Origin: an uncultured bacterium
GTDB lineage: Bacteria > Pseudomonadota > Gammaproteobacteria > Burkholderiales > Burkholderiaceae_E
Assembly (NCBI GenBank): GCA_903934795.1
Contig: CAIZPE010000123.1
Location: forward strand, 1-53,504
Direction: 5' to 3'
DNA: 53,504 nucleotides
The notes below the pieces were generated by a model. It saw nothing but the letters and a program-made list of their open reading frames with translations. It ran no database searches and was not told the origin of the DNA. A program made the position numbers and the translations under genes. Shown in pieces: positions 2,620 through 32,117 of this stretch; position 1 is the first letter of the stretch; each line of letters starts with the position of its first letter.

Positions 2620-4140
2620 ATGCCGCAAGCAAGCACCCTCGTGGAACTGATGTCGGCAGGCGCCGACGATGCCATCGCCCTCACCGCGCCCGGGGTCGCG
2701 GGTCTGAGCTTCGCGGCGCTGCGCGCCCAGGTGCATGACACCGTGGCCGCGCTCAATGCCATGGGCATCGGCCGTGGCGATCGCGTGGCGATCGTGCTCA
2801 ACAACGGCCCCGAGATGGCCACCGCCTTCATCTCGGTGGCGGCTGGCGCGGCCTCGGCGCCGCTCAATCCGGCGTATCGCGCCGACGAGTTCGAGTTCTA
2901 CCTCTCGGACCTGAACGCGCGCGGCCTGATCGTGGAGGCCGGCAGCACCTCGCCCGCGGTGGAGGTGGCGCGCAAGCTCGGCGTGCGCATCATCGAGCTG
3001 CAGCCGCGGCGCGAAGCAGGCGCCGGCGCGTTCACGCTCGCGGCCGGTCCGGCGGGCACGCCGGCCCAGCCCGGCATGGCGCAGCCCGACGATGTGGCGC
3101 TGGTGCTGCACACCTCGGGCACCACCTCGCGCCCGAAGATCGTGCCGCTCACCCAGCGCAATGTCTGCGCCTCGGCACGCAACATCCGTGGCTTCCTGTC
3201 GCTCACCGCCGAAGACCGCGGCCTGAACATCATGCCGCTCTTCCACATCCATGGCCTGATCGCCGGCATCCTCGCGCCGCTGTCGGCGGGCGGTCAGGTG
3301 TGCTGCACGCCGGGCTTCAATGCCCTGAAGTTCTTCGCCTGGATGGAGGAGTCGCGGCCCACCTGGTACACCGCCGTGCCCACCATGCACCAGACCATCC
3401 TCAGCCGCGCGGCGAACAACCGCGCGGTGATCGAGGCCAACCCGCTGCGCTTCATCCGCTCCTCGTCGTCGGCCATGCCCACGCAGGTGATCCGCGAGAT
3501 CGAGCAGGTGTTCGGCGCGCCGCTGGTCGAGTCCTACGGCATGACCGAGGCGGCCCACCAGATGGCAGCCAACCCGCTGCCTCCGCGCGAGCGCAAGCCC
3601 GGCTCGGTGGGCATCGCCGCCGGCCCCGAGATGGCGATCATGGATCTGGACGGCCGCCTGCTGCCCCCGGGCGAGACCGGCGAGATCGTGATCCGTGGCG
3701 AGAACGTCACCCTGGGCTACGAGAGCAACCCCAAGGCCAATGCCGAGGCCTTCACCCACGGCTGGTTCCGCACCGGCGACCAGGGCGTGATGGATGCCGA
3801 GGGCTACTTCACCATCACCGGGCGTCTCAAGGAGATCATCAACCGCGGCGGCGAGAAGGTCTCGCCGCGCGAGGTCGACGAGGTGCTGATGGACCATCCC
3901 GCGGTCGCCCAGGTGGTCACCTTCGCGATCCCGCACGACAAGCTCGGCGAGGAGGTGGGCGCCGCGGTGGTGCTGCGCGAGGGCGCAGCCCTGGCCGAGA
4001 AGGAGCTGCGCGAGTTTGCCGCCAAGCGGCTGGCCGACTTCAAGGTGCCGCGCAAGGTGGTGTTTCTGGAGGAGATCCCCAAGGGCGCCACCGGCAAGCT
4101 GCAGCGCATCGGCCTGGCGGCCAAGCTCGGCCTGGCCTGA
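2620..4140 (+). CDS. AMP-dependent acyl-CoA synthetase, oxalyl-CoA synthetase-like
   Basis: Adenylate-forming ligase of 506 residues that would activate a carboxylate with ATP and join it to CoA in the cytoplasm. The phosphate-binding motif is HTSGTTSRPK at 164-173, with Ser where most relatives have Gly; YGMTE lies at 306-310, RTGD at 384-387 and the catalytic-lysine motif GATGKLQR has Lys493. Long stretches, such as PLFHIHGL, TWYTAVPTMHQ and NRGGEKVSPREVD, recall the plant AAE3 / yeast Pcs60 oxalyl-CoA synthetases rather than fatty acyl-CoA synthetases. The divergent TTT transporter makes a small di- or tricarboxylate plausible as substrate; that is inference. No formyl-CoA transferase or oxalyl-CoA decarboxylase is in view. 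Confidence 0.85.
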   Translation: MPQASTLVELMSAGADDAIALTAPGVAGLSFAALRAQVHDTVAALNAMGIGRGDRVAIVLNNGPEMATAFISVAAGAASAPLNPAYRADEFEFYLSDLNARGLIVEAGSTSPAVEVARKLGVRIIELQPRREAGAGAFTLAAGPAGTPAQPGMAQPDDVALVLHTSGTTSRPKIVPLTQRNVCASARNIRGFLSLTAEDRGLNIMPLFHIHGLIAGILAPLSAGGQVCCTPGFNALKFFAWMEESRPTWYTAVPTMHQTILSRAANNRAVIEANPLRFIRSSSSAMPTQVIREIEQVFGAPLVESYGMTEAAHQMAANPLPPRERKPGSVGIAAGPEMAIMDLDGRLLPPGETGEIVIRGENVTLGYESNPKANAEAFTHGWFRTGDQGVMDAEGYFTITGRLKEIINRGGEKVSPREVDEVLMDHPAVAQVVTFAIPHDKLGEEVGAAVVLREGAALAEKELREFAAKRLADFKVPRKVVFLEEIPKGATGKLQRIGLAAKLGLA

Positions 4141-4182
4141 CCCGCCGCCGGCAGCGGCGGGCATGCGGGCTTGCGCTGCCCG
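4141..4182. terminator. GC-rich hairpins between convergent genes
   Basis: A perfect 8-base-pair stem (CCCGCCGC at 4141-4148 with GCGGCGGG at 4154-4161) begins directly after the synthetase stop, and a second 6-base-pair stem (GCGGGC/GCCCGC) follows within about 4165-4181. There is no T tract, so these may only stall polymerase or protect the 3' end. Their place between convergent genes suits a terminator for one or both. Confidence 0.35.
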
Positions 4183-4246
4183 CTGATCGTCGCGCGAGCA
4201 GCCGCTGGCACCCGCGCATCGCGCCCGCCGATCCTGGCGCGCGGGG

Positions 4247-4717
4247 TCAGCAGGCCGGCTGCGCCAGCAGCGCCTCGATCAGCTGCCAGTGGGCATCGGA
4301 CACCGGCGTGATCGACAGCCGGTTACCCCGGCGCAGCACCAGCAGATCGGCCAGTCCGGGGTGGGCACGCAGCTCGGCCAGCGACAGCAGCCGGGTGCGG
4401 CGCAGGGCCTGCACATCACGCAGCAGCCAGCGCGGCGCGTGCACCTGCGCGGTGGGGTCATACCAGGGCGAGGCGGGGTCGAACTGGGTGGGATCGGGGC
4501 GGCACTCGGAGGCGATGCGCGCGATGCCGGCGATGCCCGGCTGCGGACAACTGGAGTGGTAGAAGAGCACCGGGTCTCCCACCTGCATGGCATCGCGCAG
4601 GAAGTTGCGCGCCTGATGGTTGCGCACGCCGGTCCAGGGCACGGTGGCGTCGGGTGCGGCGAGCGCGTCGTCGATGGAGCAGTCCGAGGGCTCGGACTTC
4701 ATCAGCCAGCGGGCCAT
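4247..4717 (-). CDS. EVE domain-containing protein (thymocyte nuclear protein 1-like)
   Basis: Small cytoplasmic protein of 156 residues made of a single EVE domain, a PUA-like fold thought to bind modified bases in nucleic acid. The usual opening WLMKSEPSDCSIDD and the WTGVRNHQARNFLRD segment near residues 28-42 are present, followed by GDPVLFYHSS and a C-terminal LSITPVSDAHW. Length is normal. It lies immediately downstream of 6S RNA and zapA on the same strand. The molecular role of stand-alone EVE proteins in bacteria is unsettled. Confidence 0.9.
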   Translation of the reverse strand: MARWLMKSEPSDCSIDDALAAPDATVPWTGVRNHQARNFLRDAMQVGDPVLFYHSSCPQPGIAGIARIASECRPDPTQFDPASPWYDPTAQVHAPRWLLRDVQALRRTRLLSLAELRAHPGLADLLVLRRGNRLSITPVSDAHWQLIEALLAQPAC

Positions 4718-4749
4718 GGTGAACGCGGGTGTGCTGGTGATGGTGGAAG

Positions 4750-4931
4750 AAGGTGCCCCGCCTGTGCCGGTAGACCGGCATCCTGAACCATGAGGCTCAG
4801 GTCGGCCGCAGCGGGCATCACATCAGGTTCATCCGACGGGGGACGAGCTCAACAGCGACGCGCCATTCGCCACGGCCTGGTACGACACATTGGTTCAAGG
4901 AATGTAAGGCCTTGTCGGACACCGCAGGGCA
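4750..4931 (-). ncRNA. ssrS: 6S RNA (SsrS), RNA polymerase regulator
   Basis: On the minus strand the 5' end TGCCCTGCGGTGTCCG at about 4931 and the 3' end GGGGCACCTTC at about 4750 enclose roughly 182 bases, the size of proteobacterial 6S RNA. The ends pair as the closing stem, and the interior carries ACATTCCTTGAACCAATG and a matching ATGAACC/TGGTTCAGG arm around a bubble. The promoter fits: TACAAT on the minus strand at 4943-4938 places the start 7 bases later at 4931. The position directly downstream of zapA is the conserved location of this gene in beta- and gammaproteobacteria. 6S RNA mimics an open promoter and holds the housekeeping holoenzyme in stationary phase. Exact ends are estimates. 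Confidence 0.85.
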
Positions 4932-4937
4932 GCACAC

Positions 4938-4943
4938 ATTGTA
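4938..4943 (-). promoter_or_regulatory. -10 box of the 6S RNA promoter
   Basis: TACAAT on the minus strand, 6 bases before the inferred 6S RNA 5' end. No good -35 hexamer is visible at 16-18 bases. Confidence 0.55.
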
Positions 4944-4974
4944 GCCCCGGATGCGGCGCCCGCCGTGCCGCCGG

Positions 4975-5271
4975 TCAGAAGAGCGACTCCTGGCGGCGGA
5001 TCTCGGCCTCGAGGGCCTCGTTCACGGCGCGCAGGCGTCGCGCGCTGTCGGGCCCGGGCGCGGCGGGCTGGCGGGCGAGGATGAGCTGCTCGGCAAGCTG
5101 CAGTGCCGCGCCGATGGCGATGCGGTCGAGGTGGGTGAGCCGGTTCTCGTCGCGCACCGTGCGCATGGTCTGGTCGACCAGCGCGGCGGCCTCGATCAGG
5201 CGGGGCTTTTCGTCGGGGCCGACCGCAAGACGGTAGTCGCGGTCGAGGATGCGCACATCGATCTGTTCCAT
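4975..5271 (-). CDS. zapA: Cell division protein ZapA
   Basis: FtsZ-ring-associated protein that cross-links FtsZ filaments at midcell. The protein from the ATG at 5271 is 98 residues and begins MEQIDVRILDRDYRLAV, matching the family N-terminus; a longer reading would only add seven unlike residues. The middle carries LIEAAALVDQTMRTVRDE and the C-terminal half (LTHLDRIAIGAALQLAEQLI onward) is the expected dimerising coiled coil. It starts one base after the stop of the upstream coiled-coil gene (TGA-C-ATG), indicating translational coupling, and 6S RNA follows downstream. Confidence 0.92.
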   Translation of the reverse strand: MEQIDVRILDRDYRLAVGPDEKPRLIEAAALVDQTMRTVRDENRLTHLDRIAIGAALQLAEQLILARQPAAPGPDSARRLRAVNEALEAEIRRQESLF

Positions 5272-5272
5272 G

Positions 5273-5479
5273 TCATTCCTGCGGGGCGGCATCGGGAAGC
5301 CGCCCCAGCGCGCTGCGCACCTGCGCCCTGGCTTCGTCCATGCGCTGGCGCAGGGTCTGCTGCGCGAGGCGGGCGTCCTCGAGCGCCTGGCGCAGCTGGC
5401 GGTTTTCGTCGGCGAGCCGCTGGCTGCCGGCGATCAGCTGCTGGATCTGGCCTTCCAGCCGGTCGAGTTCGGGGTCCAT
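5273..5479 (-). CDS. Small coiled-coil protein upstream of zapA (ZapB-like / TIGR02449 type)
   Basis: A 68-residue protein starting at the ATG at 5479 (MDPELDRLEGQIQQLI). Almost the whole length is a heptad-rich helix dense in Leu, Gln, Arg and Glu, with a short Pro-containing tail. Small coiled-coil proteins of this kind commonly precede zapA in proteobacteria and are annotated as ZapB-like or TIGR02449 family, suggesting a division-ring accessory role. That role is inferred from context; the sequence itself only shows a coiled coil. Confidence 0.75.
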   Translation of the reverse strand: MDPELDRLEGQIQQLIAGSQRLADENRQLRQALEDARLAQQTLRQRMDEARAQVRSALGRLPDAAPQE

Positions 5480-5540
5480 GCGCCGATGGTAGGCAGGGTG
5501 GTGAGGGGGGTCAAGCGCGGGCCTGCGGTAGCATCGCCCG

Positions 5541-7853
5541 ATGGTTGAGCGCTTCTTGTGCCGCGGGCTGCGCGGCGCCTTCCTTGCGTGCGTGATGGCG
5601 GTCGCGGCGGGCCTCGCCCTGCTGTCCCTGCCTGCGGCCGCGCAGGGTACGCGGGTGGAGGCGGTGGAGGTGGCGCTGGTGGCGCGCGATGCCGCGGCGG
5701 TGGCCGGGCGGCCGCTGCAGGTGGCCCTGCGCATCCGCCACGATCCGCACTGGCACAGCTACTGGCGCAATCCCGGCGACTCCGGCCTGCCCACGCGGCT
5801 CGAGTGGCGTCTGCCGCCGGGCTGGCAGGCCGGCGAGATCCGCTGGCCGGCGCCGCAGCGGGTGCTGATCGGCCCGCTCGCCAACTTTGTCTACGAAGAT
5901 GAGGTCCTGCTGCCGGTGAGCCTGAGCGTCCCGGCGCAGGCCGCCGGGCAGGTCACCCTGCAGGCTCAGGCCCATTGGCTGATGTGCCGCGATGTCTGCA
6001 TCCCTGGCGAGGCCAGCCTGTCGCTGTCGCTCCCGGTGCAGGCCGCGGGCGAGCCGCCCGCCTCGCCGCACCGCGCGGCCATCGATGCCACGCTGGCCGC
6101 GCTGCCGGTGTCGCCGCTGCCGGCGCAGGCCCTGCTGGCCGAGGGGCGGCTGTCGCTGCGCCTGGCGGCCGCGGCACTCGGGCGGGCCGAGTTTTTCCCT
6201 TACGAGGAAGGCAAGCTGCAGGCGGCGGCGCCCCAGCGGCTCATGCGTCTGCCCGATGGCAGCCACCGGCTCGACATCGCGCTTGCCGAGCCCGTGCAGG
6301 GCGAGGCCTTGTCCCTCTCGACCACGCCCCGTGCGCTGGGTGTCATCCGCCTCGATGACCGGGTGAGCGAGGTGGTGGCGGTGGCCGCGAGCGGTCCCAT
6401 GCCTGTTGGCGAACCGGTGAGCGAGGCGCTCGGCCGGCAGCTGCTGCCCGCGGCGGGCCGAGCGGGCGGTGGCGGGCTCATCGCGCCGAGCGGCCCGCAG
6501 GCTGCCGCAAAGTCGGCCGTTTCGGGCCCGGGTTCGCTGTGGCTTGCCTTGCTGTTCGGCGCGCTGGGCGGGCTCATCCTCAACCTCATGCCCTGCGTGT
6601 TCCCGGTGGTCGGGCTCAAGGTGATGGGGTTCGTGGGGCATGGCCCCGCGCAGGCGCGCCGGGCGGCGATCGCCTTCGCCCTTGGCGTGCTTGCCACCTT
6701 CCTCGGGCTGGCCGGACTGCTGCTGGCGCTGCGTGCGGCCGGGCAGGCGGTGGGCTGGGGCTTTCAGCTGCAGTCGCCGGTGTTCGTGGCGCTGCTCGCG
6801 CTGCTCTTCGTGCTGATCGCGCTCAATTTCGCCGGCCTGTTCGAGGTGGGCATGAGCCTCACCCGTCTGGGCGGCGTCGAAGCGGCGATCACCGCCGGCT
6901 CGCTTGCACGCCCCGGCGGCGGTCTGCCCGGGGCCTTCGGCTCGGGCGCGCTGGCGGTGCTGGTGGCCACGCCCTGCACCGCGCCCTTCATGGGCTCGGC
7001 GCTGGGCTTCACGCTGGGCGAGCCGGCGCCGGTGGTGCTGGCGGTCTTCGCGGCGATCGCCGCCGGCATGGCGCTGCCGTATCTGGTGCTGGGCTTCATG
7101 CCGGCGCTGATTGTCCGCCTGCCGCGGCCGGGTCGCTGGATGGAGAGCCTGCGTCAGTTCATGGCCTTCCCCATGCTGGCCAGCGCGGCCTGGCTGGCCT
7201 GGGTGCTCGGGCAGCAGGCGGGCATCGACGCAGTGCTCGGGCTGGCGATCGGCGCGGTGCTGCTGTCGCTGGCGGGCTGGATCGTCGGGCGCTTCGCGCA
7301 GCCGGCCGCGGCTACCCGTCGCCCGTTTTCCGTCGCCCTGGCGCTGGGCGCGGCGATTGCCGGCGTGTGGGTCACCCTGATGCCGCTGTCCCAGGGGCGA
7401 CCGGCCTCCGGTGATGAGTCCGCCGCTGGCGGCGGCGCCCCCGCGCCCGGGGCAGGCGCGCCGCAGGCTTCGGGCGCCGCCGCCCCGGCGACGGGCGCTC
7501 CCGCGGCCACCGACTGGCAGCCCTGGAGCGAAGCCCGGGTTGCCCAGGCCATCGCCCAGGGCCAGCCGGTGTTCATCGACTTCACCGCGGCCTGGTGTGT
7601 GAGCTGCCAGGCCAACAAGCGTCTGGCCCTCGAGCGCGAGTCGGTGCGCGAGGCCTTCGCGCGCGCCGGGGTGCTGCGCCTGCGCGCCGACTGGACCCGC
7701 CACGATCCGGCGATCACCGCCGCGCTGGCCCGTCATGGCCGCCATGGCGTGCCGCTCTATCTGCTGCATCGGCCCGGCCAGGCCCAGCCGCTGATCCTGC
7801 CCGAGATCCTCACCCCGGGGCTGCTGCTCGAGGCGCTGGCCGGCCTGCGCTGA
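5541..7853 (+). CDS. dsbD: Thiol:disulfide interchange protein DsbD (ScsB-like, large form)
   Basis: Inner-membrane protein that carries electrons from cytoplasmic thioredoxin to periplasmic substrates. Of its 770 residues, about 1-35 form a signal peptide. The periplasmic N-terminal domain carries the pair Cys149/Cys153 (MCRDVCIPGE). The CcdA-like membrane domain starts near 335 with Cys352 (LMPCVFPV) and Cys479 (ATPCTAP). After a Pro/Ala/Gly-rich linker comes a C-terminal thioredoxin-fold domain with CVSC at 686-689. It is well over the roughly 565 residues of E. coli DsbD, and the CRDVC arrangement looks like ScsB-type relatives. The ATG at 5541 lacks a Shine-Dalgarno and lies 6 bases after TAGCAT (5529-5534). 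Confidence 0.9.
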   Translation: MVERFLCRGLRGAFLACVMAVAAGLALLSLPAAAQGTRVEAVEVALVARDAAAVAGRPLQVALRIRHDPHWHSYWRNPGDSGLPTRLEWRLPPGWQAGEIRWPAPQRVLIGPLANFVYEDEVLLPVSLSVPAQAAGQVTLQAQAHWLMCRDVCIPGEASLSLSLPVQAAGEPPASPHRAAIDATLAALPVSPLPAQALLAEGRLSLRLAAAALGRAEFFPYEEGKLQAAAPQRLMRLPDGSHRLDIALAEPVQGEALSLSTTPRALGVIRLDDRVSEVVAVAASGPMPVGEPVSEALGRQLLPAAGRAGGGGLIAPSGPQAAAKSAVSGPGSLWLALLFGALGGLILNLMPCVFPVVGLKVMGFVGHGPAQARRAAIAFALGVLATFLGLAGLLLALRAAGQAVGWGFQLQSPVFVALLALLFVLIALNFAGLFEVGMSLTRLGGVEAAITAGSLARPGGGLPGAFGSGALAVLVATPCTAPFMGSALGFTLGEPAPVVLAVFAAIAAGMALPYLVLGFMPALIVRLPRPGRWMESLRQFMAFPMLASAAWLAWVLGQQAGIDAVLGLAIGAVLLSLAGWIVGRFAQPAAATRRPFSVALALGAAIAGVWVTLMPLSQGRPASGDESAAGGGAPAPGAGAPQASGAAAPATGAPAATDWQPWSEARVAQAIAQGQPVFIDFTAAWCVSCQANKRLALERESVREAFARAGVLRLRADWTRHDPAITAALARHGRHGVPLYLLHRPGQAQPLILPEILTPGLLLEALAGLR

Positions 7854-25709: not shown

Positions 25710-26738
25710 ATGCGAGAACTCGACAGCCGCGCCAAGACGCTGCTCAAGACCCTGGTAGAGCGGTACATCTCCGATGGTCAGCCGGTGGGCTCGCGCACGC
25801 TCTCGCGTCACTCCGGACTCGATCTCTCGCCGGCCACCATCCGCAATGTCATGGCCGATCTCGAGGAACTCGGCCTGATTTCCAGCCCCCACACCTCGGC
25901 CGGCCGGGTGCCTACGCCCCGCGGCTACCGGCTGTTCGTCGACACCCTGCTTACCGTCCAGCCGCTCGAGCTCGGCCAGACCGAGCGCATCCATGATCGC
26001 CTGCAGGCCGAGGAGCCCCAGCGCCTGCTCTCGGCCGCAGCGGGTCTGCTGTCCAGCCTGTCGCAGTTCGCCGGGGTGGTCACCACGCCGCGTCGCTCCT
26101 CGCTGTTCCGGCAGGTCGAGTTCATGCGGCTGTCCGAGCGCCGGGTTCTGCTCATCCTGGTGACGCCGGATGGCGATGTGCAGAACCGCATCCTCGCGGT
26201 CGAGCGCGACTACTCCGGGCCCGAGCTCACCGAGGCGGCCAACTACCTCAATCATCATTTCGCCGGTCTCGATCTCGAATCCATCCGACGCCGGCTGCAG
26301 ACCGAGCTCACCAGCCTGCGCGACGACATCACCCGTCTCATGACCCGCGCGGTCGAGGCGGGCGGCCGCGCCCTCACGGAAGAGACCGAGCCCATGGTCA
26401 TCTCCGGCGAGCGCAACCTGCTGGGCGTAGCCGAACTCTCCGACAACATGGAGCGCATGCGCCGGCTGTTCGATCTCTTCGAGAAGAAGACCGGCCTGCT
26501 CACACTCATGGATGCCTCCAGCCGGGCCGATGGCGTGCAGATCTTCATCGGTGGCGAATCATCGCTCGTGCCCATGGATCAGGTCAGCGTGGTGGTGGCG
26601 CCCTATGAGGTCGAGGGCCGCATCGTGGGCACGCTCGGTGTCATCGGGCCCACCCGCATGGCCTACGAGCGGGTGATCCCCATCGTGGACATCACCGCGC
26701 GGCTGGTCTCCAGCGCGCTCAGCCACAACGTGGCCTGA
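25710..26738 (+). CDS. hrcA: Heat-inducible transcription repressor HrcA
   Basis: Repressor of chaperone operons that binds CIRCE elements, 342 residues. The N-terminal winged helix is clear ([58 protein letters not shown]), followed by the GAF-like domain ([27 protein letters not shown]) and [40 protein letters not shown] at the C-terminus. The ATG at 25710 is the natural start; only a weak AGG precedes it. No CIRCE element is visible in the gap to nadK. Confidence 0.95.
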
Positions 26739-26755
26739 CAGCGGCGTCGCCCGGC

Positions 26756-27172
26756 TCAGTCGTCCCAGGTCTGTGCCAGCAGCCGCTTCAGGTCGGCCAG
26801 GCGCGCGTCGCCCAGGCGGGCGGCAATGTCAGCCTCGATCCGCTGGATCATCTGCGCGCCGGCGCGGTTCACCAACCTGCCCTTCTCGGTGTAGCGCACC
26901 AGCTTGGAGTTGCCCCGCTGCGGGTCGTCGGCGGTCTCCAGGATGCCGCGGCGGGCGAGTTCGGCCACGGTCTTGTGCACCGCCTGACGCGAGATGGCCA
27001 GGCGGCGGGCGAGTTCGGCCATGCTCATCGGCTTGCCGCCCATGTGGGCGAGCAGGCGGCTCTGCGCCGGCGTGATGTAGGCATGCTCGCTGCGGCGCAC
27101 GTTCTTCATGATTTCGCGGGCGAACCAGTCGGAGCGCTCGAGCAGCAGCTGTTTGAGGTTGGGCTCGGCCAT
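26756..27172 (-). CDS. MarR-family transcriptional regulator
   Basis: Winged-helix regulator of 138 residues from the ATG at 27172 (MAEPNLKQLLLERSDWF); the TTG at 27193 lies inside the operator. The DNA-binding part has MSMAELARRLAISRQAVHKTVAELARRGILE and a wing with DPQRGNSKLVRYTEKGR, with flanking helices for dimerisation. It is divergent from etfB, and two 22-base inverted operators lie between them, so it probably represses itself and the ETF/acyl-CoA dehydrogenase operon and is released by a ligand such as an acyl-CoA or carboxylate. The ligand is inference. Confidence 0.9.
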   Translation of the reverse strand: MAEPNLKQLLLERSDWFAREIMKNVRRSEHAYITPAQSRLLAHMGGKPMSMAELARRLAISRQAVHKTVAELARRGILETADDPQRGNSKLVRYTEKGRLVNRAGAQMIQRIEADIAARLGDARLADLKRLLAQTWDD

Positions 27173-27182
27173 CGGAATCCAT

Positions 27183-27204
27183 CTCGTCAACAACGGTTGA
27201 CAAG
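27183..27204. promoter_or_regulatory. MarR operator O1 (with etf -35 box)
   Basis: The core GTCAACAACGGTTGAC (27186-27201) is a perfect 6-4-6 inverted repeat. The plus-strand TTGACA (27197-27202), a consensus -35 for etfB, is embedded in its right half. Read on the minus strand, 18 of 22 bases match O2 at 27230-27251. Confidence 0.7.
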
Positions 27205-27225
27205 TTCATTTTGCTGGACTATCGT
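27197..27225 (+). promoter_or_regulatory. etfB promoter P1
   Basis: Consensus TTGACA at 27197-27202, a 17-base spacer and TATCGT at 27220-27225. The start would be near 27232, inside operator O2, so a regulator on both sites would block polymerase at both ends. Confidence 0.6.
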
Positions 27226-27237
27226 GCGCCTTGTCAA
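27208..27237 (-). promoter_or_regulatory. marR promoter, overlapping etfB P1
   Basis: On the minus strand TTGACA at 27237-27232 lies within operator O2, with an 18-base spacer to CAAAAT at 27213-27208. The start would fall near 27201, inside O1, with a leader of about 29 bases. Confidence 0.5.
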
Positions 27238-27251
27238 CCAAGGTTAACGAG
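27230..27251. promoter_or_regulatory. MarR operator O2 (with marR -35 box)
   Basis: The core GTCAACCAAGGTTAAC (27233-27248) is an inverted repeat with one mismatch. Its centre is 47 bases from that of O1, and the two 22-base sites are inverted copies of one another. Confidence 0.7.
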
Positions 27252-27280
27252 TCCGGTGTCGCCGAGCCGGCTCCCGGTCC

Positions 27281-27307
27281 GTCGGGCGCAGTGCCCGACC
27301 TTATAAT
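27281..27307 (+). promoter_or_regulatory. Second candidate etfB promoter with adjoining hairpin
   Basis: A perfect TATAAT at 27302-27307 is preceded by a 7-base-pair inverted repeat (GTCGGGC at 27281-27287, GCCCGAC at 27293-27299). The -35 is poor. It may be a second promoter outside the MarR operators, or the hairpin with its following TTATAAT may act on transcripts from P1. Confidence 0.4.
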
Positions 27308-27355
27308 CGGCCGTTCAGCCGGGCTTGCCCGGCACCACCCCACCGAGACCAGCCC

Positions 27356-28105
27356 ATGAAGATCCTCGTGCCCGTCAAGCGCGTCGTCGACTACAACGTC
27401 AAGGTCCGCGTCAAGAGCGACCAGACCGGTGTCGACATCGCCAACGTCAAGATGTCGATGAATCCGTTCGACGAGATCGCCGTCGAGGAGGCGGTCCGCC
27501 TGAAGGAGAAGGGCGTGGCCACCGAGATCATCGCGGTCAGCTGCGGTGTGGCCGCCTGCCAGGAAACCCTGCGCACCGCGCTGGCCATCGGCGCCGACCG
27601 CGCGGTGCTGGTCGAGACCGATGTCGAGCTGCAGCCGCTGGCCGTGGCCAAGCTGCTCAAGGCGCTCATGGACAAGGAAGGCGCCGGCTTTGCCATCGTC
27701 GGCAAGCAGGCCATCGATGACGACGCCAACCAGACCGGCCAGATGCTCGCCGCGCTGGCCGGCATGCCGCAGGCCACCTTCGCCTCCAAGGTCGAGATCG
27801 CCGATGGCAAGGCCAAGGTCACCCGTGAGGTCGACGGGGGTCTCGAGGTGGTCTCCATGAGCCTGCCCGCGGTCATCACCACCGACCTTCGCCTGAACGA
27901 GCCGCGCTATGTCACGCTGCCCAACATCATGAAGGCGAAGAAGAAGCCGCTAGACACCGTCAAGCCGGCTGACCTGGGCGTGGATGTCGCGCCGCGCCTG
28001 AAGACCCTGAAGGTGTCCGAGCCGCCGGGCCGCAAGGCCGGCATCAAGGTGGCCGATGTGGCCACGCTGGTCGACAAACTCAAGAACGAAGCGAAGGTGA
28101 TCTGA
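27356..28105 (+). CDS. etfB: Electron transfer flavoprotein subunit beta EtfB
   Basis: Smaller ETF subunit, 249 residues, which binds AMP and with EtfA passes electrons from acyl-CoA dehydrogenases to ETF-ubiquinone oxidoreductase. The start [20 protein letters not shown] and the segments [42 protein letters not shown] and [29 protein letters not shown] are typical. It leads a three-gene operon; etfA starts one base after its stop. The promoter lies beyond a leader of up to 124 bases controlled by the MarR sites. Confidence 0.97.
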
Positions 28106-28106
28106 C

Positions 28107-29036
28107 ATGGCTGCCCTGGTTATCGCCGAACACGACAACGCGTCGCTCAAGCCCGCCACCCTCAACGCGGTCACCGCCGCAGCCGCCACCGGCGGCGAGG
28201 TGGCCATCCTGGTGGCCGGCCATCAGTGCGGCCCGGCCGCCGCTGCCGCGGCCCAGGTGGCCGGCGTCTCGCGGGTGCTGGTGGCCGATGCGCCCCAGCT
28301 CGCCGACCAGCTGGTCGAGAACATTGCCGAGCAGGTGATCGCCGTGGCCGGTGGCTTCAGCCATCTGCTCGCCCCGGCCACCGCGCACGGCAAGAACGTC
28401 ATGCCGCGCGTGGCCGCCCGCCTCGATGTCTCGCAGGTCTCCGACATCATCGGCGTCGAGACGCCTGACACCTTCACCCGGCCCATCTATGCCGGCAACG
28501 CCATCGCCACCGTGCAGTCGGCCGATGCGGTCAAGGTGATCACCGTGCGCACCACCGGCTTTGACGCCGCGCCCGCCACCGGCGGGTCGGCCCAGATCCA
28601 GGCGGTCGATGCCGTGGCCGACTCCGGCAAGTCGAGCTTCCTCGGCCGCGAGATCGCCAAGAGTGACCGCCCGGAACTCACCGCCGCCAAGGTGGTGGTC
28701 TCGGGTGGTCGCGGCATGGGCAGCGCCGAGAACTTCAAGCTGCTCGAGCCGCTGGCCGACAAGCTCGGTGCGGCCATGGGCGCCTCGCGCGCGGCGGTCG
28801 ATGCCGGCTATGCCCCCAACGACTGGCAGGTCGGCCAGACCGGCAAGATCGTTGCGCCGCAGCTCTATGTGGCGGTGGGCATCTCGGGCGCCATCCAGCA
28901 CCTGGCTGGCATGAAGGACTCCAAGGTGATCGTCGCCATCAACAAGGATGCCGAGGCGCCGATCTTCGGCGTGGCCGACTACGGCCTGGTCGCCGACCTG
29001 TTCCAGGCGGTGCCCGAGGTGGCGTCCGCCCTCTGA
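28107..29036 (+). CDS. etfA: Electron transfer flavoprotein subunit alpha EtfA
   Basis: FAD-binding ETF subunit of 309 residues. The N-terminal domain ([22 protein letters not shown]) is followed by the C-terminal FAD domain with [14 protein letters not shown], the [25 protein letters not shown] signature, [34 protein letters not shown] and [11 protein letters not shown]. It is coupled to etfB and followed after 30 bases by the acyl-CoA dehydrogenase, its likely electron donor. Confidence 0.97.
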
Positions 29037-29066: not shown

Positions 29067-30890
29067 ATGAGCTATCAGGCCCCGGTCAAGGACATGCTGT
29101 TCACCATGCGCGAGCTCGCCGGGCTCGCGTCGGTGCGCAGCCTGCCCGGTTTCGAGGACGCCACCGACGACACCGTCGAGGCGGTGCTGCATGAATCGGC
29201 CCGCTTCAATGCCGAGGTGCTCGCGCCCCTGAACTGGACCGGCGACCTGCAGCCGTCCTCGGTTGCCGACGGGGTGGTCACCACCACGCCGGGCTTTCGC
29301 GACGCCTTCCGGGGTTTCGCCGAGGCCGGCTGGCAGGGTGTGCAGCATCCTGCGGCCTTCGGTGGGCAGAACCTGCCCAAGCTGGTGGCCACGGCCTGCA
29401 TCGAGATGCTCAACAGCGCCAACCTGTCGTTTGCGCTGTGCCCGCTGCTCACCGACGGCGCCATCGAGGCCCTGCTCACCGCCGGCAGCCCCGAGCAGCA
29501 AGCGCTGTTCATTCCGCGCATGATTGCCGGCGACTGGACCGGCACCATGAACCTCACCGAGCCGCAGGCCGGCTCCGATCTCTCGCAGGTGCGCAGCCGG
29601 GCCGAGCCGCAGCCCGATGGCAGCTACCGGATCTTCGGCCAGAAGATCTACATCACCTATGGCGAGCACGACATGGCCGAGAACATCGTCCATCTCGTGC
29701 TGGCCCGCACGCCGGGCGCGCCCGAGGGCGTCAAGGGCATCTCGCTGTTCATCGTGCCCAAGTTCATGGTCGGCCAGGATGGCAGCCTGGGCGCGCGCAA
29801 CGATGTCTACTGCGCCTCGGTCGAGCACAAGCTCGGCATCAAGGCGAGCCCCACCGCGGTGCTGCTCTACGGCGACGGCAAGTTTCCGCTCGCCTCGCCC
29901 GGCGGTGGCGCGGCCGCGGCCGGTGCGGTGGGCTGGCTGGTCGGCCAGGAGAACCGCGGCCTCGAGTACATGTTCGTGATGATGAACGCCGCCCGCTTCG
30001 CGGTCGGCATGCAGGGCGTGGCGGTGGCCGAGCGCGCCTACCAGAAGGCAGTGCAGTACGCGCGCGACCGGGTGCAGAGCCGCGCGGTCGAGGGTTCGCC
30101 CGGGCCGGTGGCGATCATCGCCCACCCCGATGTGCGCCGCATGCTCATGACCATGCGTGCGCTCACCGAAGGCGCCCGCTCGCTCGCCTATGTGGCTGCG
30201 GCCGCCTACGACGCCGCCCATGCGTCACCGGATGCCGACACCCGCAAGGCGAACGCGGCCTTCTATGAATTCCTGGTGCCGATCGTCAAGGGCTTCTCCA
30301 CCGAGATGAGCCTCGAGGTCACCTCGCTGGGCGTGCAGGTGCATGGCGGCATGGGCTTCATCGAGGAGACCGGCGCCGCGCAGTACTACCGCGATGCCCG
30401 CATCCTGCCCATCTACGAGGGCACCACCGCCATCCAGGCCAACGATCTCATCGGTCGCAAGACCGTGCGCGATGGCGGCCAGACCGTGCGCGGCGTGCTC
30501 GGGCGTGTCGCGCAGACCCTGGCCGAGCTGCCGGACGATGGTGAACTCGGTGGCATCCGGCGGCGCCTCGAAGAAGGCGCGCACGCCCTCGGCGCAGCGG
30601 CCGACTATCTGGTTGCCCAGGGCAAGGCCGACCCGCGGGCCACCTATGCCGGCAGCGTGCCCTACCTCATGCTGTGCGGCACCGTCCTTGCTGGCTGGCA
30701 AATGGCCCGCGCCGCGCTGTCTGCCAGCCAGCAGCTGGCTGCCGGTGCCGATGACGCCGACTTCCTGAAAGCCAAGATCGGCACGGCTCGCTTCTATGCC
30801 GACCACATCCTGTCGCGTTCGCTGTCGCTGCGCGCAGCCATCGTCGACGGCGCCAGCGGTACGCTGGCGCTCGAGGAAGCGATGTTCTGA
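29067..30890 (+). CDS. Acyl-CoA dehydrogenase, large C-terminal-extended type
   Basis: FAD-dependent dehydrogenase of 607 residues that would introduce the 2,3-double bond into an acyl-CoA and pass electrons to the ETF encoded upstream. It belongs to the longer class with an extra C-terminal domain (the DmdC / AcdB-like group). Signatures include [61 protein letters not shown], and [41 protein letters not shown] split over adjacent blocks. The Glu of IYEGTT is in place as catalytic base. The substrate chain is not predictable; candidates include medium-chain and methylmercaptopropionyl-CoA. Confidence 0.93.
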
Positions 30891-30925
30891 CGCCACGCCC
30901 CGGTGCGCCGGGGTCTGGACAGATA

Positions 30926-30941
30926 CTGGATATTCATCCAC
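30926..30941 (+). promoter_or_regulatory. Candidate LexA (SOS) box
   Basis: CTGGATATTCATCCAC has the CTG-N10-CAG form with one mismatch and the inner GGATATTCATCC inverted repeat. It lies in the 132-base gap between the acyl-CoA dehydrogenase and the radical SAM gene, about 82 bases before the chosen start of the latter. PA0069 of Pseudomonas aeruginosa, the family's namesake, is a reported LexA target as I recall it. Confidence 0.45.
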
Positions 30942-31022
30942 TATCAAGGGGTGAGCCACACCCCTGCATCCGCCTTCCTGCGTCCCGCCCGCCCGGCAGC
31001 CGCGCCGCCGGTCGGCTCGGTC

Positions 31023-32117
31023 ATGGCCGGGCAGGCGGTGCAGGTATGCCGGGGCCGCGGCGCGGTTTCAAGCCCCCAGCCGCGGTTCAACCAGCAGGTT
31101 CGTGAGGCCGCGCCTGATGGCTGGCTGAGCGTCCCAGAGCCCTCGATGGCGGTCACCCGTATCGCCACCGAGACCGCGCGCAGCCTGATCAGCCGCAACC
31201 TGTCGCCGGACGTCTTCTTCGACCAGTCGGTCAATCCCTATCGCGGATGCGAGCATGGCTGCATCTACTGCTACGCCCGGCCCAACCATGCCTGGGTCGG
31301 TCTGTCGCCAGGCCTTGACTTCGAAACCCGCCTGTTCGCCAAGGTCAACGCGCCGGAAGTCCTCGCCCGCGAGCTCGATGCCCCGGGCTACCGCTGTGCG
31401 CCCATCGTGCTGGGCACCGCCACCGATGCCTACCAGCCCGCCGAGCGCGAGTTCCGCCTCACCCGTCAGCTCATCCAGGTGATGGCCGAGCGCCAGCACC
31501 CGCTGGCCCTGATCACCAAGTCCAGTCTGGTCGAGCGCGACATCGATCTGCTCGCGCCCATGGCAGCCGCGGGTCAGGCTGCCGCCTATGTCACCGTCAC
31601 CACCCTCGATCCCGATCTCGCGCGGCACTGGGAGCCGCGTGCGCCGGCACCCTGGCGGCGCCTGGAGACCATCCGAAAGCTCTCGCGAGCCGGCATTCCC
31701 GTGGGGGTCATGGTGGCGCCACTCACGCCCTTTCTGAACGAGCCCGAACTCGAGCAGGTGCTGCAGGCGGCGCACGAGGCTGGCGCGCGCAGTGCCCACT
31801 ACACGGTGCTGCGCCTGCCCCAGGAGCTCGATCCGCTCTTCAGGGACTGGCTGGCCGCCCATTACCCGCAGCGGGCGGCCCGGGTGCTGGCCCGTCTGGC
31901 GGACATGCGCCCGCAGCCTGCAGGTGGGCGGCAGCGCCTGAACGACGCCCGATTCCATCACCGGATGCGCGGACAAGGCCCCTGGGCCGAACTCATCCGT
32001 CTGCGGTTCCAGGTCGCATGCCAGCGTCTGGGTCTGCGCCGGGATCGTCCGGTGCTCCATGCCGATGCTTTCCGGCCTCTGCGGCCGTCGGCCCAGCTCG
32101 CTCTGTTTCCGGCCTGA
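31023..32117 (+). CDS. PA0069-family radical SAM protein (SplB-like)
   Basis: Radical SAM enzyme of 364 residues from the ATG at 31023, chosen because the family begins shortly before an RGRGA motif (here CRGRGAVSSPQPRF) and because earlier starts would place a probable LexA box inside the gene. GTG at 30951 remains possible. The iron-sulfur motif is CEHGCIYCYARP, Cys-x3-Cys-x2-Cys. Other features are NPYRGC, GTATDAYQPAEREFRLTRQ and VMVAPLTPFLNEPELEQVL. The fold is related to spore photoproduct lyase; its substrate is unknown. The possible SOS box suggests a DNA-damage role. Confidence 0.88.
   Translation: MAGQAVQVCRGRGAVSSPQPRFNQQVREAAPDGWLSVPEPSMAVTRIATETARSLISRNLSPDVFFDQSVNPYRGCEHGCIYCYARPNHAWVGLSPGLDFETRLFAKVNAPEVLARELDAPGYRCAPIVLGTATDAYQPAEREFRLTRQLIQVMAERQHPLALITKSSLVERDIDLLAPMAAAGQAAAYVTVTTLDPDLARHWEPRAPAPWRRLETIRKLSRAGIPVGVMVAPLTPFLNEPELEQVLQAAHEAGARSAHYTVLRLPQELDPLFRDWLAAHYPQRAARVLARLADMRPQPAGGRQRLNDARFHHRMRGQGPWAELIRLRFQVACQRLGLRRDRPVLHADAFRPLRPSAQLALFPA

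Follow-up and report, generated by a model that had tools for sequence, protein, structure and literature searches.

Regulators of the MarR family have a standard scheme, in which the regulator gene is divergent from the genes that it controls and palindromes lie in the promoters (PMC5487221). A well-described case is CouR of Rhodococcus jostii RHA1, a MarR family autorepressor divergent from catabolic genes, whose inverted repeat lies over divergent -35 boxes and whose operator binding is abolished by p-coumaroyl-CoA (PMC4737184). According to the same source, Arg36 and Arg38 of CouR bind the phosphates of CoA, and some homologues are without both arginines. Between couN and couR there is a single repeat, whose spacer is 5 bp long (cATTGA--TCAATg); couT and couH have operators as well (PMC4737184). 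HucR, too, is encoded divergently from its target and both are repressed (PMC5487221). Overlapping divergent promoters that exclude each other's polymerase are described for PacrA/acrR of E. coli, where the gene of a local repressor flanks one side (PMC12825309). Finally, FadP, PsrA, LiuR and LiuQ regulate the breakdown of fatty acids or branched-chain amino acids in Proteobacteria, and some of these regulators are betaproteobacterial (PMC5343134).

The locus that we describe here, the region between a marR gene and etfB in an uncultured member of the Burkholderiales, resembles each of these systems in part. It shares with CouR a predicted autorepressor divergent from catabolic genes and palindromes over the -35 boxes of the predicted divergent promoters, but there are two operators instead of one, their spacer is 4 bp, the promoters are interleaved and the whole arrangement is confined to a single locus. 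Repression of both the regulator gene and its target, as in HucR, is a prediction here; HucR, unlike this regulator, acts at a single site and on another substrate and other genes (PMC5487221). The bidirectional promoters of E. coli share one -10 box (PMC12825309), whereas here there are two separate ones, 6 bp apart (27208-27213 and 27220-27225), and each keeps its own place in the relatives. FadP and LiuQ are of the TetR type and LiuR is of the MerR type, unlike the present MarR protein, and the FadP regulon averages 17.9 genes per genome (PMC5343134) against one locus here; the main text of that paper does not contain the string 'etf'. A search of open-licence papers recognised no MarR regulator of etfBA with this operator. 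The type of control is already well known, and what is particular here is that the inner halves of the operators double as -35 boxes, that the geometry is strict, that the regulon in this genome has a single locus and that there is a probable second promoter.

The window, by which we mean the whole stretch of 53,504 nucleotides that was analysed, belongs to a genome of 4,182,444 bases in 353 contigs. On its reverse strand, marR (26756-27172) encodes a protein of 138 amino acids, and the forward strand carries etfB (27356-28105, electron transfer flavoprotein subunit beta; Pfam ETF), etfA (28107-29036, subunit alpha; Pfam ETF and ETF_alpha) and an acyl-CoA dehydrogenase gene (29067-30890, 607 amino acids, with Pfam acyl-CoA dehydrogenase domains). 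The small protein is, by its predicted winged-helix domain and modelled fold, a member of the MarR family: it matches Pfam MarR_2 with 49.9 bits (cut-off 27), and its AlphaFold2 model (pLDDT 93.4) has MarR proteins as its closest solved structures in Foldseek, with matches to PcaV, MarR and HcaR. No NCBIfam model reached its cut-off for this protein, and no RNA element was found by Rfam in 26700-27500.

The two putative operators lie between marR and etfB. O1 occupies 27183-27204 (CTCGTCAACAACGGTTGACAAG; core 27186-27201, GTCAACAACGGTTGAC) and O2 occupies 27230-27251 (CTTGTCAACCAAGGTTAACGAG; core 27233-27248, GTCAACCAAGGTTAAC); both follow the pattern GTCAAC-N4-GTTGAC, which O1 matches perfectly and O2 with a single mismatch. 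The original prediction had placed them at these positions as inverted copies identical at 18 of 22 bases, and our comparison agrees, the inverted pair being listed at 82%. The word "inverted" nevertheless says little beyond the fact that there are two copies of a palindrome, since each site is self-complementary at 16 of its 22 positions, and in direct-repeat orientation the two are still identical at 17 of 22. A terminator-like call at O1 was rejected, its signal being the operator palindrome itself. In the 4.18-Mb genome O1 and O2 are the only sites at up to one mismatch, and the reversed control pattern has no site at that threshold, so that the suggested search for further members of a regulon added none in this genome. 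In the window alone, at up to two mismatches, a pair of matches is unremarkable, as it was reached in 20 of 100 shuffles; the case for operators therefore rests on their conservation in relatives.

Each operator is tied to a predicted promoter. P1 (27197-27225, forward strand, towards etfB) has TTGACA at 27197-27202, a spacer of 17 bp and TATCGT at 27220-27225; PmarR (27208-27237, reverse strand, towards marR) has TTGACA at 27237-27232, a spacer of 18 bp and CAAAAT at 27213-27208. A consensus scan of 26700-27400 returned exactly these two promoters, both as originally predicted; 50 shuffles gave 0.0 on average. In the window both -10 boxes are weak ones. The inner half of O1 forms the -35 box of P1 and that of O2 the -35 box of PmarR. 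The starts, predicted at about 7 nt past each -10 box, would fall near 27232 for P1, which is in O2, and near 27201 for PmarR, which is in O1, in line with the earlier prediction of the starts. Palindromes thus stand in the regulator's own predicted promoter, as is expected of a MarR autorepressor. The spacers of the two promoters (27203-27219 and 27214-27231) overlap, and together they fill the interval between the -35 boxes.

Conservation in relatives, which had been proposed as a check, gives the strongest evidence. Among 101 genomes searched with the protein, 21 had a clear MarR orthologue, at 60-100% identity (our own included), the next match being at 41% or less. A profile search of 74 genomes of the family gave 25 matches at E <=1e-25, of which 24 are the MarR orthologue; the one remaining match, in G113, belongs to a distant homologue (39%) in another context, with neither an operator site nor an etfB neighbour, and it is left out of the counts below. 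The orthologue occurs in 8 of the 16 genera of the family. When 399 genomes of the order were searched at E <=1e-20, with 10 candidates per genome scored, at least 7 matched, and those listed are all in the family. The nearest loci in named records bear Betaproteobacteria or Burkholderiales labels and include Zeimonas arvi, Quisquiliibacterium transsilvanicum and a Lautropia assembly. The gene etfB is divergent from marR at all 24 orthologue loci, the window included (for G015 the neighbour check covered etfB only), and the order marR, etfB, etfA, acyl-CoA dehydrogenase is found at 20 of the 22 loci compared (L062-L083), the contig ending within etfB at the other two.

The same module, two -35 boxes that each form the inner half of an operator and a -10 box in either direction, is present at all 24 of these loci. 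The inward-facing pair of -35 boxes is separated by 29 bp in 14 of them and by 28 bp in 10, while the distances from this pair to marR and to etfB vary. The forward box reads TTGACA in every case, and the reverse box does so in 22, with TTGACG in G003 and G007. A forward -10 box (A at position 2, T at position 6) lies 17 bp from its -35 box at 20 loci and 18 bp from it in G023, G058, G101 and G102; a reverse -10 box of the same definition is present in all 24, at 18 bp in 14 and at 17 bp in 10. As a control, the pattern of the inner halves was looked for elsewhere in the family; of nine further occurrences, none has both -10 boxes and two have the forward one only. Among family genomes that lack the orthologue, five contain the pattern somewhere, in no case with both -10 boxes. 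Since the 24 loci represent one family, these counts are not independent observations.

We also asked what lies upstream of etfB where marR is missing. Thirty etfB loci were retrieved from 51 of the 61 genomes that gave a match, and 14 of these loci are without the orthologue; one of the 14, L111, has only 6 bp of upstream sequence, which leaves 13 readable loci, 11 from the family and two from other families. In the 320 bp upstream of etfB none of the 13 has an operator, apart from a single match in L105, at -317, with two mismatches and a 3-bp spacer. The operators are thus found at 24 of 24 loci with marR and at 0 of 13 without it. Further, a perfect palindrome lies upstream of the marR gene in all four distant homologues (38-41% identity), from Aromatoleum anaerobium, Pseudomonas delhiensis, Pseudomonas vancouverensis and a Comamonadaceae assembly, and in three of the four this gene is divergent from an acyl-CoA dehydrogenase gene. 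The recognition helix that these four share is not independent evidence, because the peptide search patterns included part of it. No site at up to two mismatches was found at nine loci of weaker MarR homologues (L024-L032), nor, with a 4-bp spacer, at L140.

The two Pseudomonas loci deserve a separate remark. At both, a transporter gene is present whose product exceeds the cut-off for MhpT, which transports 3-(3-hydroxyphenyl)propionate, and the homologue of 38-41% identity (L085 and L087, about 3790-5800) lies between this gene and that of the acyl-CoA dehydrogenase. A full site and a half site are seen between the divergent genes and more sites before the transporter gene, and this homologue is possibly a phenylpropionate regulator.

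It might be argued that a regulator other than the adjacent MarR protein recognises the palindromes, and indeed ten genomes without the orthologue carry perfect sites. Altogether, 31 of the 101 genomes searched have a perfect site. Twenty of the 21 marR genomes from the protein search have it at the marR-etfB locus; the remaining one, G060, has 3-bp spacers at its own marR locus and a perfect site only as a stray. These strays fit chance, since the reversed control pattern is about as common (13 of 101 genomes). As the operators also co-occur with marR at the locus and the same palindrome stands beside all four distant homologues, we regard a foreign reader as very improbable. We attribute the operators to the adjacent MarR protein on three grounds: this co-occurrence, the palindromes of the distant homologues and the preservation of those operator halves that serve as -35 boxes.

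Twelve stray places were read. A recurring one, GTCAACGCAGGTTGAC, is at the end of an apparent flagellar hook gene (judged from the protein by eye). In G021, which does have marR, an additional perfect site away from marR-etfB (L034, 1501-1516) has a TAAAAT box 16 bp after it. In genus g15, two genomes that are without the orthologue (L052 in G055 and L053 in G052) have a perfect GTCAACN4GTTGAC at about 1501; the surroundings are alike and seem to be non-coding, and TAGATTGGGCTCATGA or its reverse is close by. These sites are perhaps the operator of another regulator.

Natural variants illuminate which bases matter. Four loci of one genus (G024, G032, G039 and G045) have lost the outer half of O1, and G018 has lost that of O2. 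At all five loci the inner half with the -35 box is kept, and since these halves survive the decay of the outer ones, the -35 boxes are kept for their own sake. Milder changes are seen in G007, whose O1 has two mismatches in its outer half, and in G004 and G008, where one mismatch in the inner half of O2 leaves the -35 box intact. The spacer of O2 is 3 bp in G023, G044, G058, G101 and G102, and both spacers are 3 bp in G060, so that the repressor seems, judging by these variants, to tolerate 3 or 4 bp.

The rigid distance between the operators, just two gaps of 28 and 29 bp over 24 loci, could be taken as a sign that MarR dimers on O1 and O2 bind cooperatively or loop the DNA between them. In our opinion this is quite unlikely. 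The centres of the operators are 46-47 bp apart, about 4.4-4.5 helical turns, which would place the dimers on roughly opposite faces, and the five loci just mentioned retain the gap after the loss of an outer operator half. Besides, any insertion or deletion in the interval would alter at least one promoter, so the promoter spacers that fill it could account for the rigidity alone, without contacts between repressors.

The original prediction did not include a further element. A TATAAT box (P2, 27302-27307, forward strand) outside the operators starts 54 nt ahead of the etfB start codon and recurs in relatives. At 25-100 nt from the etfB ATG an exact TATAAT is found at 18 of the 24 marR loci and at 10 of the 13 loci without marR, against 0.4 and 0.7% of shuffles; allowing one mismatch raises these counts to 22 and 13, respectively, and the shares of base shuffles to 9 and 14%. 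The best -35 sequences at spacers of 16-18 bp match only 1-4 of 6 positions, mostly 2. Because loci without marR have P2 alone, it looks ancestral, and it is probably the older etfB promoter, though one without a good -35 box. Its distance to the centre of O2 ranges from 37.5 to 162.5 bp over 22 loci, and with such variation P2 is not part of the operator design. On the same grounds we rejected activation of P2 from O2.

A reader may object that P1, with its perfect -35 box, is the sole working etfB promoter, the TATAAT being inactive or silenced from O2, in which case MarR would control etfBA fully. P1 must indeed serve etfB in G018 and G022, where no P2 box is found within 25-100 nt of the etfB ATG, and at 8 of the 22 loci the predicted P2 start follows the centre of O2 at about 50-54 bp, near enough for it to be disturbed. 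In the window, however, that distance is about 73 bp, the exact box is far commoner than in shuffles, and every one of the 13 loci that have no marR matches it at 5 or 6 of 6 positions, a level (at least 5) that 9-14% of shuffles reach. Full control appears unlikely to us. Since P2 lies outside both operators and is present where marR is not, repression from O1 and O2 probably leaves basal transcription of etfBA; MarR would gate the added promoter P1 and not all ETF expression. Thus the twin MarR operators on two overlapping promoters are supported, by their co-occurrence with marR and the palindromes of the distant homologues, while the predicted control of the whole ETF and acyl-CoA dehydrogenase cluster is not supported in that form, on account of P2.

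The reading that we prefer, and consider likely, is a local MarR autorepressor acting on a two-way module, with P1 inducible and P2 giving a base level independent of MarR. One MarR dimer would sit on O1 and another on O2. As each operator covers one promoter's -35 box and the other promoter's predicted start, filling either should block both directions, and repression of both interleaved promoters by MarR is, as a deduction from this geometry and its conservation, well supported. Owing to the interleaving, RNA polymerase should hold only one of the two promoters at a time. Release would presumably follow the binding of an acyl-CoA or aryl-CoA on which the neighbouring dehydrogenase acts, after which P1 would add transcription of etfB, etfA and the dehydrogenase gene and marR would be made again; P2 would supply basal etfBA expression regardless of MarR. 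The ligand is the weakest step: the neighbouring genes suggest an acyl-CoA or aryl-CoA, and the release of CouR by a CoA thioester (PMC4737184) is an analogy only.

How the arrangement arose can be described tentatively. The etfB tree has 36 rows, 22 with marR and 14 without (G044 and G058 are omitted, their etfB being cut by a contig end). It is weakly resolved; the presence of marR needs about eight changes on it, two of them forced by supported branches, and an independent-pairs test on this same tree has two supported independent pairs. We infer that the marR module would have been added upstream of P2, or lost, several times. It is possible, though we would not call it probable, that marR and the interleaved promoter-operator pair form a self-contained cassette upstream of the ancestral etfB promoter, gained or lost several times within one Burkholderiales family, in which operator halves are -35 bases and competition for polymerase ties the supply of repressor to the output of the operon. 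The ETF genes of this little-studied family hereby receive a likely dedicated regulator with exact operators and a probable single target. The locus can also serve as a small natural model of how a single repressor acts on two interleaved promoters, and relatives with half operators or without P2 provide variants for comparison.

The genes hrcA, nadK and recN of the window stand beside marR only at the two closest loci (L062 and L063). In the window hrcA (forward) and marR (reverse) are convergent, with stop codons 17 bp apart (26738-26756), and a terminator scan of this gap found none. Directly downstream of the acyl-CoA dehydrogenase gene lies the gene of a PA0069-family radical SAM protein (30903-32117), whose true start is probably further in, because the family match begins at residue 50.
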